Shown here piece by piece: positions 41,101 through 53,059 of a stretch of 64,000 bases of DNA; positions within the stretch are counted from its first letter, which is position 1, and the number at the start of each line of letters is the position of its first letter. Under the pieces are notes generated by a model. That model did no database searches. It was given only the letters and a program-made list of their open reading frames with translations, and had not been told where the DNA came from. The stretch is from Enterobacteriaceae endosymbiont of Donacia cinerea (GTDB lineage: Bacteria > Pseudomonadota > Gammaproteobacteria > Enterobacterales > Enterobacteriaceae): contig NZ_CP046204.1 in NCBI RefSeq assembly GCF_012569925.1, forward strand, positions 354,817 through 418,816, in the 5' to 3' direction. Both the position numbers and the translations under genes were made by a program.

Positions 41101-42053
41101 ATGCAATATATAAATTTAACTTTTAAAGTTTGTTTAAAATATGATAAAAAAAGATTAGATTTATTTCTTACTAAAAAAATTTTACAATTTTCAAGATCAC
41201 AAATAAAGAAAACTATTATTAATAATAATGTAAGAATAAATGATGTTGTTATTAACTTACCTAAAAAAAAATTTTTTTTAAAGATATAATTAAAATTAAT
41301 ATATTTATTACAGATAATAATATATGGAAAGCACAAAATTTATATTTAAATATAGTTTATGATGATAAATATATTTTAGTTATAAATAAAACTACTAATT
41401 TTGTTGTACATCCTGCTAATAAAAATAAAAATAATACTGTTTTTAACTCTTTATTATATAATTATCCCTTTTTAAGAGATGTACCTAGAGCAGGAATTAT
41501 ACATAGATTAGATAAAAATACAACAGGATTAATGATTATAGCAAAAAATATGAATTCATATTTTTTTTTAAAAAAAGAATTAAAAAATCATAATATTATT
41601 AGAGAATATGAAGCTATTGTAAATGGAGTAATTAAAACTAATGGAATAATAAATTATCCAATAAAACGTATATATAAAAAACATAATATTTGTATGCAAA
41701 TTAATTTATTAGGTAAAAAATCAATAACAAAATATTTTATAAAAAATATATTTAAAAATCATACTCATTTAAGAGTCAGATTAAAAACAGGGAGAACACA
41801 TCAAATTAGAGTACATTTATCACATATTAATCATAGTATTGTTGGTGATCCAGTTTATAAAAAATTTAAAAATTTTTCTTTAATCAATAATTTTTATAAA
41901 AAAAAAATTAATGAAATTATTCAAAGACAAGCTTTACATGCTTGTTATTTGAAATTTATGCATCCATTTTTCAACATAAATATTAAATTATTTTCAATAA
42001 TACCAAATGATATAAGTAATTTAATTAATTTTTTGAAAAAAAATAAAAATTAA
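41101..42053 (+). pseudogene. rluD: 23S rRNA pseudouridine synthase RluD with a frameshift
   Basis: Makes pseudouridines 1911, 1915 and 1917 in 23S rRNA helix 69. The first frame (41101-41289) encodes the S4 RNA-binding domain (RLDLFLTKKILQFSRSQIKK) and stops. From about 41277 the -1 frame continues without interruption: IIKIN, then NIVYDDKYILVINKTTNFVVHPA, then the catalytic IIHRLDKNTTGLMIIAKN, then RTHQIRVHLSH, to the stop at 42053. Joined, the product would be ~317 residues (E. coli 326). The break lies in A9T8 (41263-41279), one base short. The sequence T TTT TTA (41274-41280) there is a canonical -1 slippery heptamer. It may be expressed by slippage, be a young pseudogene, or reflect a sequence error. 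Confidence 0.85.
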
Positions 42054-42899: not shown

Positions 42900-43760
42900 A
42901 TGAAAAAAAAAATAATTTTAATTGATGGATCATTTTGTTTATATCGTGCTTATTATGCTTTACCTAAATTAATTAATACTAAAGGGGATCCTACTGGTGC
43001 AATATATGGTTTTATTAAAATTTTTAACAAGATCATAAAAATGAACATAAATAGTTATTTTTTAATTATATTTGATACTAAAGGAATATCTTTTAGAAAA
43101 AAAATTTTTAGTGAATATAAATCAAAAAGAACTAATATGCCTGATAATTTAATTTTACAAATTAAACCTTTATTAAAAATTATACAGGCAATGGGATATA
43201 ATTTTATATCTATAAAAAATATAGAAGCAGATGATATAATTGGTACTTTATCATTAAAAGCAGAACAAAAGAATTATTTAGTTTTTATTTTTAGCTTAGA
43301 TAAAGATATAACACAATTAGTTAATAAAAATATAAAAATAATTAATCCTATTAATTATTCTATTTCTGGACCGAAAGAGATATATAAAAAATATGGAGTA
43401 TACCCAAAATTTATTAGTGATTTACTAGCATTAAGTGGTGATTCCATTGATAATATTCCTGGAGTTCCAGGAATAGGAAATAAAATAAGTCAAAAATTAA
43501 TAAACAAATTAGGAAATTTAAAAAATATATATAAAAATATAAATATTATTAATAACAATAATTTTAGAGGGGGTTGTAATATAAAAAAAAAACTTATAAA
43601 ATATAAAAAATTAGTTTTTTTGTACCATAAATTAACAAAAATAAAAACTAATATTACTCTAGATATAGATTATTTTAATTTTTTACAGTTTAAAATAAAA
43701 CCCCAAATAAATTATTTGAAATATTTATTTCAAAAATACGAATTTAATAAATTTAATTAA
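42900..43760 (+). CDS. polA: DNA polymerase I reduced to its 5'-3' exonuclease domain
   Basis: 5' flap nuclease that removes RNA primers during Okazaki fragment maturation. 286 residues, matching only the first ~290 of E. coli Pol I (928). Metal-binding acidic residues are in LIDGSFCLYRAYYA, IFDTKG, IEADDIIGTLS, SLDKDITQLV and SGDSIDNIPGVPGIG (helix-three-turn-helix). The proofreading and polymerase (Klenow) parts are absent: the stop is 40 bp before the convergent engB end, so ~1.9 kb has been lost cleanly. Buchnera has the same reduced form. Gap filling must be done by another polymerase, probably Pol III. Confidence 0.93.
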   Translation: MKKKIILIDGSFCLYRAYYALPKLINTKGDPTGAIYGFIKIFNKIIKMNINSYFLIIFDTKGISFRKKIFSEYKSKRTNMPDNLILQIKPLLKIIQAMGYNFISIKNIEADDIIGTLSLKAEQKNYLVFIFSLDKDITQLVNKNIKIINPINYSISGPKEIYKKYGVYPKFISDLLALSGDSIDNIPGVPGIGNKISQKLINKLGNLKNIYKNINIINNNNFRGGCNIKKKLIKYKKLVFLYHKLTKIKTNITLDIDYFNFLQFKIKPQINYLKYLFQKYEFNKFN

Positions 43761-48234: not shown

Positions 48235-48453
48235 ATGTCTAAAATTTGTCAAATAACAGGAAAAAAAACAATAAAAGGTAATAATCGTTCTCATGCAATG
48301 AATGCAACTAAAAGGAAATTTTTACCAAATATTCATTTTCATAAGTTTTGGTTAAAAAAAGAAAAAAAATTTATAACTATAAAAGTATCTGCAAAAGGTA
48401 TGAGATTAATCAATAAAAAAGGTATTGAAAATATTTATTTATATAAAAAATAA
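48235..48453 (+). CDS. rpmB: 50S ribosomal protein L28
   Basis: Large-subunit ribosomal protein, 72 residues (E. coli 78). Starts [11 protein letters not shown] and contains the family stretch [16 protein letters not shown]; basic throughout. The final residues are shortened. 11 bp before rpmG, as in the E. coli rpmBG operon. Confidence 0.97.
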
Positions 48454-48464
48454 AGGTTATTTTT

Positions 48465-48626
48465 ATGGCAAAAAAAAAACGTATTATAATTAAATTAATT
48501 TCATCAGCTCAAACTGGTCATTTTTATACTATTACTAAAAATAAAAAAAATACACAAAAATTAGAAATAAAAAAATTTGATCCTTATATAAGGAAACATG
48601 TATTGTATAAAGAAAAAAAAATTTAA
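48465..48626 (+). CDS. rpmG: 50S ribosomal protein L33
   Basis: Small ribosomal protein of 53 residues (E. coli 55), beginning [20 protein letters not shown] and continuing [20 protein letters not shown] and [13 protein letters not shown]. It matches E. coli L33 along its whole length. As in E. coli it lacks the zinc cysteines of the alternative form. A ten-A run just after the start codon is in frame here, in contrast to smpB. The ribosome binding site AAAGG is inside the rpmB stop region. Confidence 0.96.
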
Positions 48627-48661
48627 TAAAACTTAATCTTTTAAGATGAATAATTCATAAT

Positions 48662-48714
48662 ATATTAATCAATAATATGTTTAATAATTAACAATTATTG
48701 ATTAATATTTTTTT
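48662..48714. terminator. Bidirectional hairpin between rpmG and rpmE
   Basis: Perfect 15-bp inverted repeat ATATTAATCAATAAT (48662-48676) and its complement (48694-48708), with a 17-base loop, followed by T7 on the plus strand. Lies between the convergent 3' ends of rpmG and rpmE. Only two of the 15 pairs' bases are not A or T, so this is a nearly pure A/T terminator. Confidence 0.65.
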
Positions 48715-48722
48715 AAAAAATT

Positions 48723-48944
48723 TTATTCAAATATTTTAGAATTTTTAAATCTTTTTTTAAAATTTTCAACACGTCCTTTAGTATCAGTTATTTTTTGTTT
48801 TCCTGTATAAAAAGGATGACATATATAACAAACATCTAAATTTAATTCTTTATTATTTTTTAAAGTTGATCTAGTATGAATAGTATTACCACAAGAACAT
48901 TTTGCAATAATTTTATTATATTCAGGATGAATATTTTTTTTCAT
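48723..48944 (-). CDS. rpmE: 50S ribosomal protein L31
   Basis: 73 residues (E. coli 70). Zinc-type L31 with the cysteines in CSCGN and [14 protein letters not shown]. Starts [12 protein letters not shown] as in the family. Divergent from priA, the E. coli arrangement, and convergent with rpmG. Confidence 0.97.
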
Positions 48945-49052
48945 AAATTACCAATAATGTATTTTTTATAAAAAATCTTTATTTATATATTTTATAAATA
49001 TATTGTATTATTACAAGAAAATTTTTATAAAAAAGAATAAAAATTTTAAATT

Positions 49053-51119
49053 ATGAATATTGTTAAAGTTGTATTTAATAATTCTGTTATATATAATAAA
49101 TTTGATTATTTATTACCTAAAAATACATCAATTTATATTGGATGTAGAGTTATAGTTCCTATAAAAAAAAAAAATTATATAGGTATAGTAATAGAAATTA
49201 ATAATTTTTCTAAACTATCTATAAAAAAATTAAAATTTTTATATAAAATTTTAGATAAAAAACCACTTTTTAATTCTTCTATTTTAGATTTTGCAAAACA
49301 AATTTCTAAATATTATAAATATCCTATTGGATTTATATTATTTCAAATACTACCAATATTTTTTAGGAAAAAAAATAAATATAAAATAAATTTAAAAAAT
49401 AATCTACAAGTAGATAAAATAAATATTTTAAGTAATAATAAATTAATAAAATTATATAATTTTAAAAAAATAAAAAATTTTTTGTTAAATAAAAAAAAAA
49501 ATAATAATTTTTATCAAGAAAATATAGATAAAATATTACAATTTTTAGAAAAAAAAAATTTTCAAAAAAAATTTTATGTTTGGGTAACACAAGATAATAT
49601 TATTTTTCTTGAAAAAATAAATATCTATTTAAATATTATAGAAAAAATTATATTTCAAAAAAAACAGGTATTAATAATAGTACCACAAAAATATCATTTT
49701 TTTTATTTGTATCAATATTTTATATCTAAATTAAATGTTTCAGTATGTTTACTATATTCAAATTTTAAAAATAAAAAAACATTACCAATTTGGGAAAATA
49801 TAAAAAATGGTAAAATATTAATTATTATTGGTACAAAATTTACTATTTTTACACAATTTTTAAAATTAGGACTAATTTTTTTAATAGAAGAACATAATTT
49901 TATATATAAAAAAACAAATATATATAAATATAATATAAGAGATATTGCTATTTTAAGAGCAAAAATTGAAAATATTCCTATTATATTAAGTTCAAAAACA
50001 TTAAGTTTAGAAACATTATATAATATAAATATAGGAAAATTTAAATTTTTATTACAAAATAATAAAAAAATATTATATACAAATTTTTTTAAATTTTTAA
50101 TTTTAGATATAAATAAACAAGTTTCAAAATTACAGTTATTTCATAAAAATTTAATAACAAAAATACAATTATCTATCAAAAATAATGAACAAGTTATTAT
50201 TTATTATAAATATCAAGGATATTCTAATCTTATTTTATGTAATTTTTGTAAAAAACCCTTAAAATGTAAAAATTGTAATAAAAATTATATTTTTTTCAAA
50301 AAATTATGGAAATTATACTGTATATTTTGTAAAAAAAATATAAATATGTTAAATTTTTGTCCTTTATGTAAAAAAAATTTTTTTATACCAATAGGTATTG
50401 GACAAGAGCAACTAATTGAATTTTTAAAAAAATTATTTCCAAATATTTTAATTTTAAATATTAATAATAAAAATTTTTTAAAAAAAATTTTATTAATTAA
50501 AAACAATAAACCATTAATAATAATTTCTTCTCAAATTTTATATAAAAAATATTTTTCTTTTTTAGTTAATACTTTAATTATTATTTTAAATATAGACAAT
50601 ATTTTTTTTTCTAAAAATTTTAGAACAACAGAATATTTTTCTCAATATATTTTTAATATATTAAATAATCATTTAGATACAAGTGTAAGAAAAAAAAAAA
50701 TTATTCTTCAAACAAATTATCCATATAATAAAATTATTATAAAAATATTTAAAAAATATAATACATATTATAATATTGCAAACCTTCTTTTAGAAGAAAG
50801 AAAAATAATGCTATTACCACCTTTTACAAATCATATTATTCTAATTTTAGAATCTTATGATAAAAAAATTTTATTAAATTTTTTAGAAACATTAAAAAAA
50901 AAAATAATATATAAATGTGTAAATGAAAAAAATTTTTTTATTATTGGTCCTTTATCATTATTACAAAATAAAAGAAAAGGATTATTTAGAAAACAAATTA
51001 TTCTACAACATACTTTAAAAAGTAAATTACAATTTATTATAAATTATATTATTTCTATTAATAAAAAAATTATAAATTTTAACAAAGTTAAATTAACAAT
51101 TAACATTGATCCAATATAA
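49053..51119 (+). CDS. priA: Primosomal protein PriA lacking helicase motifs
   Basis: In E. coli PriA recognises forked DNA, unwinds the lagging strand and loads the primosome for replication restart. 688 residues (E. coli 732) in one open frame, next to rpmE as in E. coli. The N-terminal 3'-end-binding domain and the eight zinc cysteines (CNFCKKPLKCKNC and CIFC...CPLC, residues ~396-445) are kept, as is the C-terminal LLPPFTNHIIL region. The helicase motifs are gone. GVTGSGKTEVY is WVTQDNIIFLEKINIY near residue 178, DEEH is IEEH, the GTQMLAKGHHF motif is SSQILYKKYFSF, and QVAGRAGR is absent near residue 545. ATPase activity is very unlikely. A structural primosome-assembly role is inferred; decay towards a pseudogene is the alternative. 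Confidence 0.9.
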   Translation: MNIVKVVFNNSVIYNKFDYLLPKNTSIYIGCRVIVPIKKKNYIGIVIEINNFSKLSIKKLKFLYKILDKKPLFNSSILDFAKQISKYYKYPIGFILFQILPIFFRKKNKYKINLKNNLQVDKINILSNNKLIKLYNFKKIKNFLLNKKKNNNFYQENIDKILQFLEKKNFQKKFYVWVTQDNIIFLEKINIYLNIIEKIIFQKKQVLIIVPQKYHFFYLYQYFISKLNVSVCLLYSNFKNKKTLPIWENIKNGKILIIIGTKFTIFTQFLKLGLIFLIEEHNFIYKKTNIYKYNIRDIAILRAKIENIPIILSSKTLSLETLYNINIGKFKFLLQNNKKILYTNFFKFLILDINKQVSKLQLFHKNLITKIQLSIKNNEQVIIYYKYQGYSNLILCNFCKKPLKCKNCNKNYIFFKKLWKLYCIFCKKNINMLNFCPLCKKNFFIPIGIGQEQLIEFLKKLFPNILILNINNKNFLKKILLIKNNKPLIIISSQILYKKYFSFLVNTLIIILNIDNIFFSKNFRTTEYFSQYIFNILNNHLDTSVRKKKIILQTNYPYNKIIIKIFKKYNTYYNIANLLLEERKIMLLPPFTNHIILILESYDKKILLNFLETLKKKIIYKCVNEKNFFIIGPLSLLQNKRKGLFRKQIILQHTLKSKLQFIINYIISINKKIINFNKVKLTINIDPI

Positions 51120-51157: not shown

Positions 51158-53059
51158 ATGGTAAATAATCTTATGTATAATTTTAATAAATTTGATGTAA
51201 TAGTTATAGGTGGAGGACATGCCGGTACAGAAGCTGCTATAGCTAGTGCTAAAATGAAAAAAAAAACTCTTTTAATTACAAATAATATAGATACAATAGG
51301 TCAAATGTCTTGTAATCCAGCTATAGGTGGTATTGGAAAAAGTCATTTAGTAAAAGAAATAGATGCCTTAAATGGAATAATGGCTACTGCAATCGATTAT
51401 TCTGGAATTAATTTTAAAATACTTAATATTAGTAAAGGTCCTGCTGTTAGATCAACAAGAGCACAAGCAGATAGAGAATTGTATAAATCTCAAATTAAAT
51501 TACTGTTAAGTAAAGAAAAAAATTTATTTATTTTTCAACAAGAAGTAAAAAAAATTATAATTAAAAATTATAAAATTATAGGTATTATTACTAAAAATAA
51601 TGATATTATTAATACAAAAATTGTAATCTTAACTACTGGTACTTTTTTAAATGGTCAAATTTATATTGGATTAAATAATAAATATTATGGAGGAAGAATT
51701 AATGATCCTTCATCTACAGAATTAGCTGATTTTTTAAATGAATTACCTTTAAAAAAAGGAAGATTAAAAACAGGTACTCCTCCAAGAATTGATAAAAGAA
51801 GTATTGATTTTTCTAAATTAGAAATACAATATAGTGATAATCCATTACCTTATTTTTCTTTTATTGGTAACTCTAAACAACATCCTAAACAAATACCTTG
51901 TTATATTACATATACTAATAAAAATACACATAAAATAATAATAGATAATATTATTAAAAGTCCAGTATATAGTGGTTTAATTAAAAGTAAAGGTCCTAGA
52001 TATTGTCCTTCTATTGAAGATAAAATTATTAGATTTCCAGATAAAGATAAACATCAAATTTTTTTAGAACCGGAAGGGTTATTAAGTTATGAAATTTATC
52101 CTAATGGTATTTCAACAAGTCTCCCATTTGATATGCAATTTTTAATTATACAATCTATTAAAGGTTTAGAAAACGCATATATTACAAGACCAGGATATGC
52201 TGTAGAATATGATTTTTTTGATCCTAGAGGATTAAAACCTACAATGGAAAGTAAATTTGTAAAAGGATTATTTTTTGCAGGTCAAATTAATGGTACTACT
52301 GGTTATGAAGAAGCTGCATCACAGGGATTAATAGCTGGATTAAATGCGTCTCTTTTAATTGATAATAAAAAAAGTTGGTATCCATTAAGAAATCAAGCAT
52401 ATATTGGAGTATTATTAGATGATTTATGTACTTTAGGTACAAAAGAACCATATCGTATGTTTACTTCTAGAGCAGAATATAGATTAATATTACGTGAAAA
52501 TAATGCAGATATTAGATTAACAGAAATAGGTCGTAAACTAGGTTTAGTTGATGATATACGTTGGAAAAAATTTAATGAAAAATTAGAAAGTATTGAAAAA
52601 GAATATCAAAAAATTAAAAATTTTTGTATTAATTTAAATGATAAGAAAAATATTAAAAAAATAAATCTTTTATTACAAAATCCAATAAAAAAAAATATAA
52701 ATGGTTTAAACTTATTAAAACGTTCTGATATTAATTATTTAGATTTAATTAAATTAAAATTGTTTAATTTAAAAAAAAAAAATATAGAAATTATCGAATA
52801 TATTGAAACTGAATTAAAATATCAAGGATATATAAAAAGACAAAAAGAATTTATAAAAAAATTTCAAAAAAATGAAGAAAAATTAATACCAATAAATATT
52901 AAATACTGTAATATTAAAAGTTTATCACATGAAGCTAAAGATAAATTTGATTTATATAAACCGTTTACTATTGGACAAGCTTCTAGAATACCTGGGATAA
53001 CACCAGCAGATATTTCAATACTCTTAATTTATTTATTAAAAAATAAAAAAATGTATTAA
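51158..53059 (+). CDS. mnmG: tRNA uridine-5-carboxymethylaminomethyl modification enzyme MnmG (GidA)
   Basis: FAD-dependent enzyme that with MnmE modifies U34 of certain tRNAs. 633 residues (E. coli 629). The FAD loop [13 protein letters not shown] follows a short N-terminus. Other motifs present are [24 protein letters not shown], the FAD-binding [12 protein letters not shown] and [17 protein letters not shown]. An in-frame ATG at 51173 ([15 protein letters not shown]) fits the family N-terminus better than 51158 and may be the true start. With IscS supplying sulfur for 2-thiolation, wobble modification seems retained. Confidence 0.95.

Follow-up and report, generated by a model that had tools for sequence, protein, structure and literature searches.

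The question raised by the priA locus of the reed-beetle symbiont Enterobacteriaceae endosymbiont of Donacia cinerea is what remains of a helicase when the motifs of its motor have been lost and its reading frame has stayed open. The locus was studied in a window of 64,000 nucleotides (the whole stretch of DNA that was analysed, from contig NZ_CP046204.1 of a 468 kb genome that is held in two contigs and is 99.42% complete), where priA occupies positions 49053..51119 of the forward strand and encodes, from an ATG start and with no internal stops, a protein of 688 residues. The product is a full-length PriA. Its motifs for ATP binding and hydrolysis are destroyed, it retains the zinc site and the fold of the family, and in the genus as a whole every domain, together with the windows of the former motifs, is under purifying selection. 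It is very probably a selected pseudohelicase, and the pattern suggests a helicase cut down to a scaffold. The reading preferred here, at a probability of roughly 0.6, is that of an ATP-independent fork-binding scaffold that would help to recruit DnaB, the recruitment step itself being inferred. The features on which the argument draws are the following.

49053..51119 (+): priA, encoding the PriA taken to be a pseudohelicase; open reading frame above the TIGR00595 cut-off and the sole PriA found in the genome.
49068..49355 (+): 3'-DNA-binding domain (3'BD, residues 6-101), retained; PriA_3primeBD (PF17764) at 72.9 bits (cut-off 22.7); ratio of nonsynonymous to synonymous substitution rates (dN/dS) 0.044-0.115.
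49356..49577 (+): winged helix (WH) and linker (residues 102-175), weakest constraint; dN/dS 0.110-0.263; predicted local distance difference test score (pLDDT) below 50 at residues 109-154.
49587..49634 (+): former motif I (Walker A, residues 179-194); P-loop glycines replaced in 24/24 genomes of the genus and the threonine in 23/24.
49869..49919 (+): former motif II (residues 273-289); DEEH reads IEEH in the alignment.
49980..50021 (+): motif III region (residues 310-323); GSATP reads SSKTL in the alignment.
50235..50378 (+): cysteine-rich region (CRR, residues 395-442); Cys396, 399, 405, 408, 423, 426, 436 and 439 all retained, four PriB-docking residues replaced.
50520..50570 (+): former motif V (residues 490-506), placed by the alignment.
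50637..50687 (+): former motif VI (residues 529-545), erased; near-invariant residues kept 0/5 in the window and 0/120 cells over 24 genomes.
50820..51116 (+): C-terminal domain (CTD, residues 590-688), retained; PriA_C (PF18074) at 38.1 bits (cut-off 26.9); dN/dS 0.061-0.167.
51158..53059 (+): mnmG, the next gene downstream of priA, named by eye; its N-terminal part served as the selection control (dN/dS 0.024-0.059).

The protein was found to belong to the PriA family, with a TIGR00595 match of 270.7 bits against a curated cut-off of 230.35, and it also matches solved PriA structures by sequence. The closest named protein is the PriA of the Donacia simplex symbiont (88% identity), followed by those of other reed-beetle symbionts. 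The motor motifs were read by alignment to Escherichia coli PriA from NC_000913. Motif I, GVTGSGKTEVY in E. coli, reads TQDNIIFLEKINIY, motif V, GTQMLAKGHHF, reads SSQILYKKYFSF, the VAGRAGR of motif VI reads ILNNHLDT, and motif II has lost its aspartate. These readings bear out an initial annotation of the locus, as do the eight zinc cysteines, the LLPP region (present as an MLLPP stretch) and the open frame of 688 codons. The accompanying statement that every helicase motif has been lost went too far; it holds for motifs I, V and VI and for the aspartate of motif II, but Glu-Glu-His of motif II, part of motif III and the P-loop lysine remain. The signature of an active superfamily 2 helicase (P-loop GxxGxGKT, DExH, motif VI GRxGR) is absent, and the DEAD (14.3 bits) and Helicase_C (15.3 bits) models both score under their cut-offs. 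A baseline of conservation was provided by 66 residues that are near-invariant (≥95%) in 38 motif-intact PriAs, comprising 30 from a protein search, seven relatives with intact motifs and E. coli itself. The window PriA keeps 7/22 of them in motifs I, II, III, V and VI vs. 34/44 elsewhere (Fisher p = 0.0005), so that the loss in the motifs exceeds chance. Genus-wide, the two P-loop glycines are kept in 0/24 genomes, Thr231 in 1/24, the motif II aspartate in 2/24 and the motif VI residues in 0/24. These figures bear on the idea of a weak, non-canonical ATPase, with nucleotide still bound by the lysine and by motif II through its Glu-Glu-His. The P-loop lysine column is K in 13/24 genomes, the window included, and in 19/19 other motif-less PriAs, and Glu322 is kept in all 43 motif-less PriAs compared; nevertheless, the column holds N, E, Q or R in the other 11/24, AT-rich codons favour lysine, and the genus-wide losses just listed make such an ATPase very unlikely. 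A search of the genome with the TIGR00595 profile found no second PriA. The second match was an RNA helicase of the DEAD-box type, whose GSGKT, DEAD and HRIGRTGRAG are intact, and DnaB retains its P-loop (by eye), so these two other helicases of the genome do not share the motif loss. That the RNA helicase is the only second match to the priA model is also a hint of a possible absence of RecG and Mfd, neither having been searched for directly.

All 24 genomes examined in the genus carry an open, full-length priA (675-729 codons) with the P-loop glycines lost. Selection was estimated with a codon model, in which the synonymous rate was shared and dN/dS was fitted separately for each domain, on six disjoint sister pairs, the closest of ten, taken in order to limit saturation. 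Over all domains dN/dS ranged from 0.04 to 0.26, with medians of 0.079 for the 3'BD, 0.175 for the linker, 0.075 for HD1 outside the motifs, 0.095 for the zinc region, 0.106 for HD2 outside the motifs and 0.109 for the CTD; the former motif windows gave 0.05-0.11 (median 0.077), and the mnmG control had a median of 0.038. The values are approximate because divergence is high even in the closest pairs (1.3-2.0 expected neutral changes per codon), and all the same none is near 1. The linker, in which residues 109-154 are modelled with low confidence, is the least constrained part, indicating that the test separates strong from weak constraint. An AlphaFold model of the window PriA yielded the PriA fold and resembled the fork-bound form, not the ADP-bound crystal form. 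A control model of a motif-intact PriA behaved alike (its lowest root-mean-square deviation was also to the fork-bound form, with a different entry leading by Z), so no conclusion is drawn on a locked state. A decaying gene, whose motor was lost first and whose remainder is held up by slow loss in a clonal genome, might be suspected from the 13/295 family genomes that seem to be without PriA (no match at E 1e-5), from the two in-frame TGA codons of priA at locus L061 in another small genome and from the weaker constraint on PriA than on mnmG. This explanation is largely refuted, and appears quite improbable, given the dN/dS values in all domains of the six pairs, the frame open in 24/24 genomes, whose hosts are reported to have diversified over 75-100 million years (PMC7289800), and the eight zinc cysteines present in every one of them. 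With motif I erased and the frame open in all 24 genomes and with dN/dS low in every domain, the state is not one of recent decay. As no second priA was found and dN/dS lies far below 1 throughout, the zinc region included, the "structural" half of the "structural loader" proposed in the initial annotation is well supported.

The loader half depends on partners. In the fork complex of E. coli, PriA is reported to contact the fork by the 3'BD, WH, HD1, HD2, CRR and CTD and to thread the lagging strand through a pore, and Asp438, Ser481, Thr482 and His483 are given as its PriB-docking residues (PMC10175261). In the window the four docking columns read F, K, N and F, respectively, and the E. coli residues are kept in 0, 8, 1 and 1 of the 24 genomes. 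The eight-cysteine region lies intact inside HD2. Ser481 and Thr482 are both kept in 8/8 motif-intact PriAs (E. coli and seven relatives); only these two carry the argument on PriB docking, because Asp438 and His483 vary among motif-intact PriAs. The site for the SSB tail was read from residue numbers in Klebsiella numbering plus one, which counts as weak evidence. Plain E. coli numbering did not fit, and five of the six residues matched after the shift; the sixth, R465, did not match and was dropped. So placed, the site is partly kept, with Tyr87 and Lys371 each in 24/24 and Arg698 as Arg or Lys in 23/24, and the SSB of the window's genome ends DFEDDIPF.

Replication partners were surveyed by profile searches over the 24 genomes (one only 83% complete), with E. 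coli detected as a control in each search. DnaT (E up to 0.001), PriC (E up to 0.1) and DnaA (E up to 0.001) were found in 0/24. The PriB model gave matches in 23/24, none over cut-off, the one in the window's genome being SSB, and the DnaC model (PF01695) gave sub-threshold matches in 24/24, none over cut-off, DciA not having been searched for. A divergent DnaC among these matches was rejected, since one or two examples inspected from several size classes were Lon, ClpX, AroE and an ABC ATPase (these four by eye) and adenylate kinase; other sub-threshold matches measured ~447, ~622 and ~580 residues, none near E. coli DnaC (245 residues). DnaB, RecA and RNase HI were each detected in 24/24. 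R-loop-driven initiation of the rnhA-minus type is not favoured, given that RNase HI is present in all 24. The loss of partners alone is not new, as Moranella is reported to have lost dnaC and dnaT and kept priAB (PMC3620526) and dnaA to be lost in several insect symbionts (PMC4389277). An E. coli primosome of PriA, PriB, DnaT and DnaC, with its partners present and PriB docked on the CRR, was not found in the genus, and the initial proposal of a structural loader is only partly supported in its E. coli sense. With the partners not found, and with Ser481 and Thr482 kept in 8 and 1 of the 24 genomes, any loader here would need to act without them.

Loading without PriB and DnaT has been proposed for Deinococcus radiodurans, and the symbiont PriA is an extreme form of the pseudohelicase already known from that species (Lopper, Boone and Morrow 2015, PMC4504706). 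According to that report, the D. radiodurans protein is likewise an ortholog of PriA in which Walker A and B are degenerate, and no clear priB or dnaT homolog was found in the genome; it shows no measurable ATPase and negligible unwinding, binds single-stranded DNA at ~215 nM and fork DNA at ~109 nM, and migrates together with DnaB in native gels, and a DnaB-binding role was proposed for it. The reported motif I and II matches are poor, with K-to-R in GKT, whereas in the symbiont motifs I, V and VI are erased; unlike in the D. radiodurans report, DnaC, PriC and DnaA were also not found, and the protein belongs to gammaproteobacterial insect symbionts. DNA binding, the lack of ATPase and contact with DnaB were shown for the D. 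radiodurans protein (PMC4504706) and are predicted for that of the symbiont. In E. coli, the ATPase-dead K230R PriA still supports primosome assembly (PMC4504706, introduction), and ATPase-inactive K230A PriA is reported to load DnaB in vitro with PriB, DnaT and DnaC (PMC10175261). These are laboratory point mutants with partners, whereas the loss in the symbiont is natural, affects most motifs, extends through the genus and comes with partners not found.

On the preferred reading of a DnaB-recruiting scaffold, the symbiont PriA would no longer hydrolyse ATP or unwind DNA and would act as a passive clamp that grips forks and D-loops by its 3'BD, emptied helicase lobes, CRR and CTD, with the SSB tail bringing it in or steadying it. 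DnaB would be placed on the lagging strand without ATP, PriB, DnaT, PriC or DnaC, probably by direct contact with PriA, as the D. radiodurans protein appears to do; its comigration with DnaB makes such a contact plausible. As it would not unwind, the symbiont PriA would be of use only where the lagging strand of the fork is single-stranded beforehand. With DnaA not found and RecA present, restart may depend on it as the chief factor left for recognising forks. The fork-binding parts and fold kept in the window PriA, together with the E. coli loading partners missed in the 24 genomes, would also fit a selected pseudohelicase that binds forks and loads no DnaB, protecting or marking forks and D-loops while holding SSB and the 3' end, or holding another factor, with DnaB loading itself or through another protein. 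This is possible, although clearly less probable, and the comigration reported for D. radiodurans (PMC4504706) speaks against it. Several points nevertheless weigh against the recruiting scaffold. Contact between PriA and DnaB cannot be read from sequence, loading would need to occur without a DnaC-type loader, and the selected parts of PriA could serve another role at forks. Asp438 and His483 are kept in only 2/8 and 3/8 motif-intact PriAs, and the Trp83 column of the SSB site, which is only partly kept, holds Lys, Gln or Thr (0/24 Trp). Additionally, PriA evolves faster than mnmG (domain medians of 0.075-0.175 vs. 0.038), so that the constraint is real but weaker.

The pattern had been called uncommon. 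Among small symbiont genomes this does not hold, since the whole genus shows it and so do Buchnera and others. Thirty loci with a PriA match, in genomes of ≤1.1 Mb (putative insect symbionts, judged from their small size) and from 24 genera, were taken from 295 genomes surveyed in the family, picked by E-value and not at random. Motifs I and VI are lost in 19/30 (14 genera), all motifs are intact in seven, three are intermediate (G203, G089 and G038) and one carries two in-frame TGA codons (G138), with the eight cysteines present in 30/30. Six Buchnera proteins and the PriA of Candidatus Erwinia haradaeae have likewise lost the P-loop glycines and motif VI. Buchnera and the other small-genome Enterobacterales thus show the same loss of motifs I and VI with eight zinc cysteines kept; in P0070, one of four proteins from ~310 kb contigs, Tyr replaces one cysteine. 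The 19 other motif-less PriAs compared for the lysine column comprise the six Buchnera proteins and 13 of the survey loci, out of 19 that are motif-less, leaving out L058, L060, L070, L073, L075, L078 and the intermediates. For L060, L070, L073 and L071 the motifs were read on whole frames, as motif I (in L071, part of it) precedes the first Met. Genus g48 holds both an intermediate (G203) and a motor-less (G070) PriA, which suggests that the loss there was independent of the one in reed-beetle symbionts. The tree built from 38 PriAs, from which L060, L061, L070, L073, L075 and L078 were omitted (short from the first Met, or with internal TGA), gave at least two changes on well-supported branches and three by parsimony; it was flagged for long branches meeting and for uneven composition, so it does not settle the number of independent losses. 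The intermediate priA of L061 (G138, 0.8 Mb), with motif I partly left, motif VI lost and eight cysteines, may show the order of motif loss. Two motor-less priA genes from ~300 kb genomes, L075 (G305) and L078 (G124), carry six and three in-frame TGA codons with eight cysteines intact, reflecting either decay or a lineage in which TGA encodes an amino acid.

Within the literature searched, PriA pseudohelicases were found described only in Deinococcus, and a search resting largely on titles and abstract openings found no description of a motor-less PriA in an insect symbiont among the papers listed. The main text of a study with expression data for reed-beetle symbionts (PMC12508126) contained no hit for priA. 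A table in a 2019 review lists Buchnera PriA (BU120) with ATP as the primosome helicase (PMC6389857). The actinobacterial PriA (NCBIfam PRK14873 models; Rocha 2005, PMC1193525) is another PriA relative, described as smaller and very divergent. The window PriA scores 420.7 bits with the PRK05580 models vs. at most 71.5 with actinobacterial PRK14873. For the actinobacterial proteins UniProt/HAMAP reportedly carries a warning that helicase domains are not detectable. New in the present case are how far the erosion has gone, that it recurs in relatives with small genomes while sparing the zinc site, and that all the E. coli loading partners searched for in the genus are apparently absent.

Reed-beetle symbionts are reported to have one chromosome and one plasmid each, with perfect synteny across 26 hosts (PMC7289800). 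Upstream of priA (48235-48945) lie two small open reading frames, by eye rpmB and rpmG, followed by one on the opposite strand, by eye rpmE; in E. coli rpmE adjoins priA in opposite orientation, so this neighbourhood is retained. Of DNA polymerase I only the 5'-3' exonuclease domain is left (42900-43760, +, 286 residues, corresponding to positions 1-277 of 889 in the full model). The gene rluD (41101-42053, +) lies in two frames, the part from ATG 41101 stopping near 41288 just past an A/T run and the C-terminal part forming the open reading frame 41532-42053 in another frame, which may be a frameshift, a slippage site or an assembly error. The AT-skew minimum (38040) and the cumulative GC-skew minimum (38174) fall at or beside the gap between the divergent parC (-) and DAHP synthase gene (+), ~11 kb from priA, and mark a possible origin side, though coding-strand bias alone could produce them.

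A bolder extension, in which the motor-less PriA is the sole recognisable recruiter of DnaB in a cell devoid of DnaA, DnaC, DnaT, PriB and PriC, placing it without ATP at broken forks and also starting chromosome replication at RecA-made D-loops, with the same reduction in parallel in other insect symbionts, is doubtful. The motor of PriA is reported to be dispensable in laboratory E. coli and yet well conserved in most bacteria (PMC4504706). Natural lineages that lack the motor and keep the scaffold make it possible to ask which function of PriA is protected by selection. They also offer a system in which to ask how a cell loads DnaB when DnaA, DnaC, DnaT, PriB and PriC are all apparently absent, a question common to many reduced symbionts. 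The label "helicase" on such PriAs, that of Buchnera included, may mislead models of minimal genomes.
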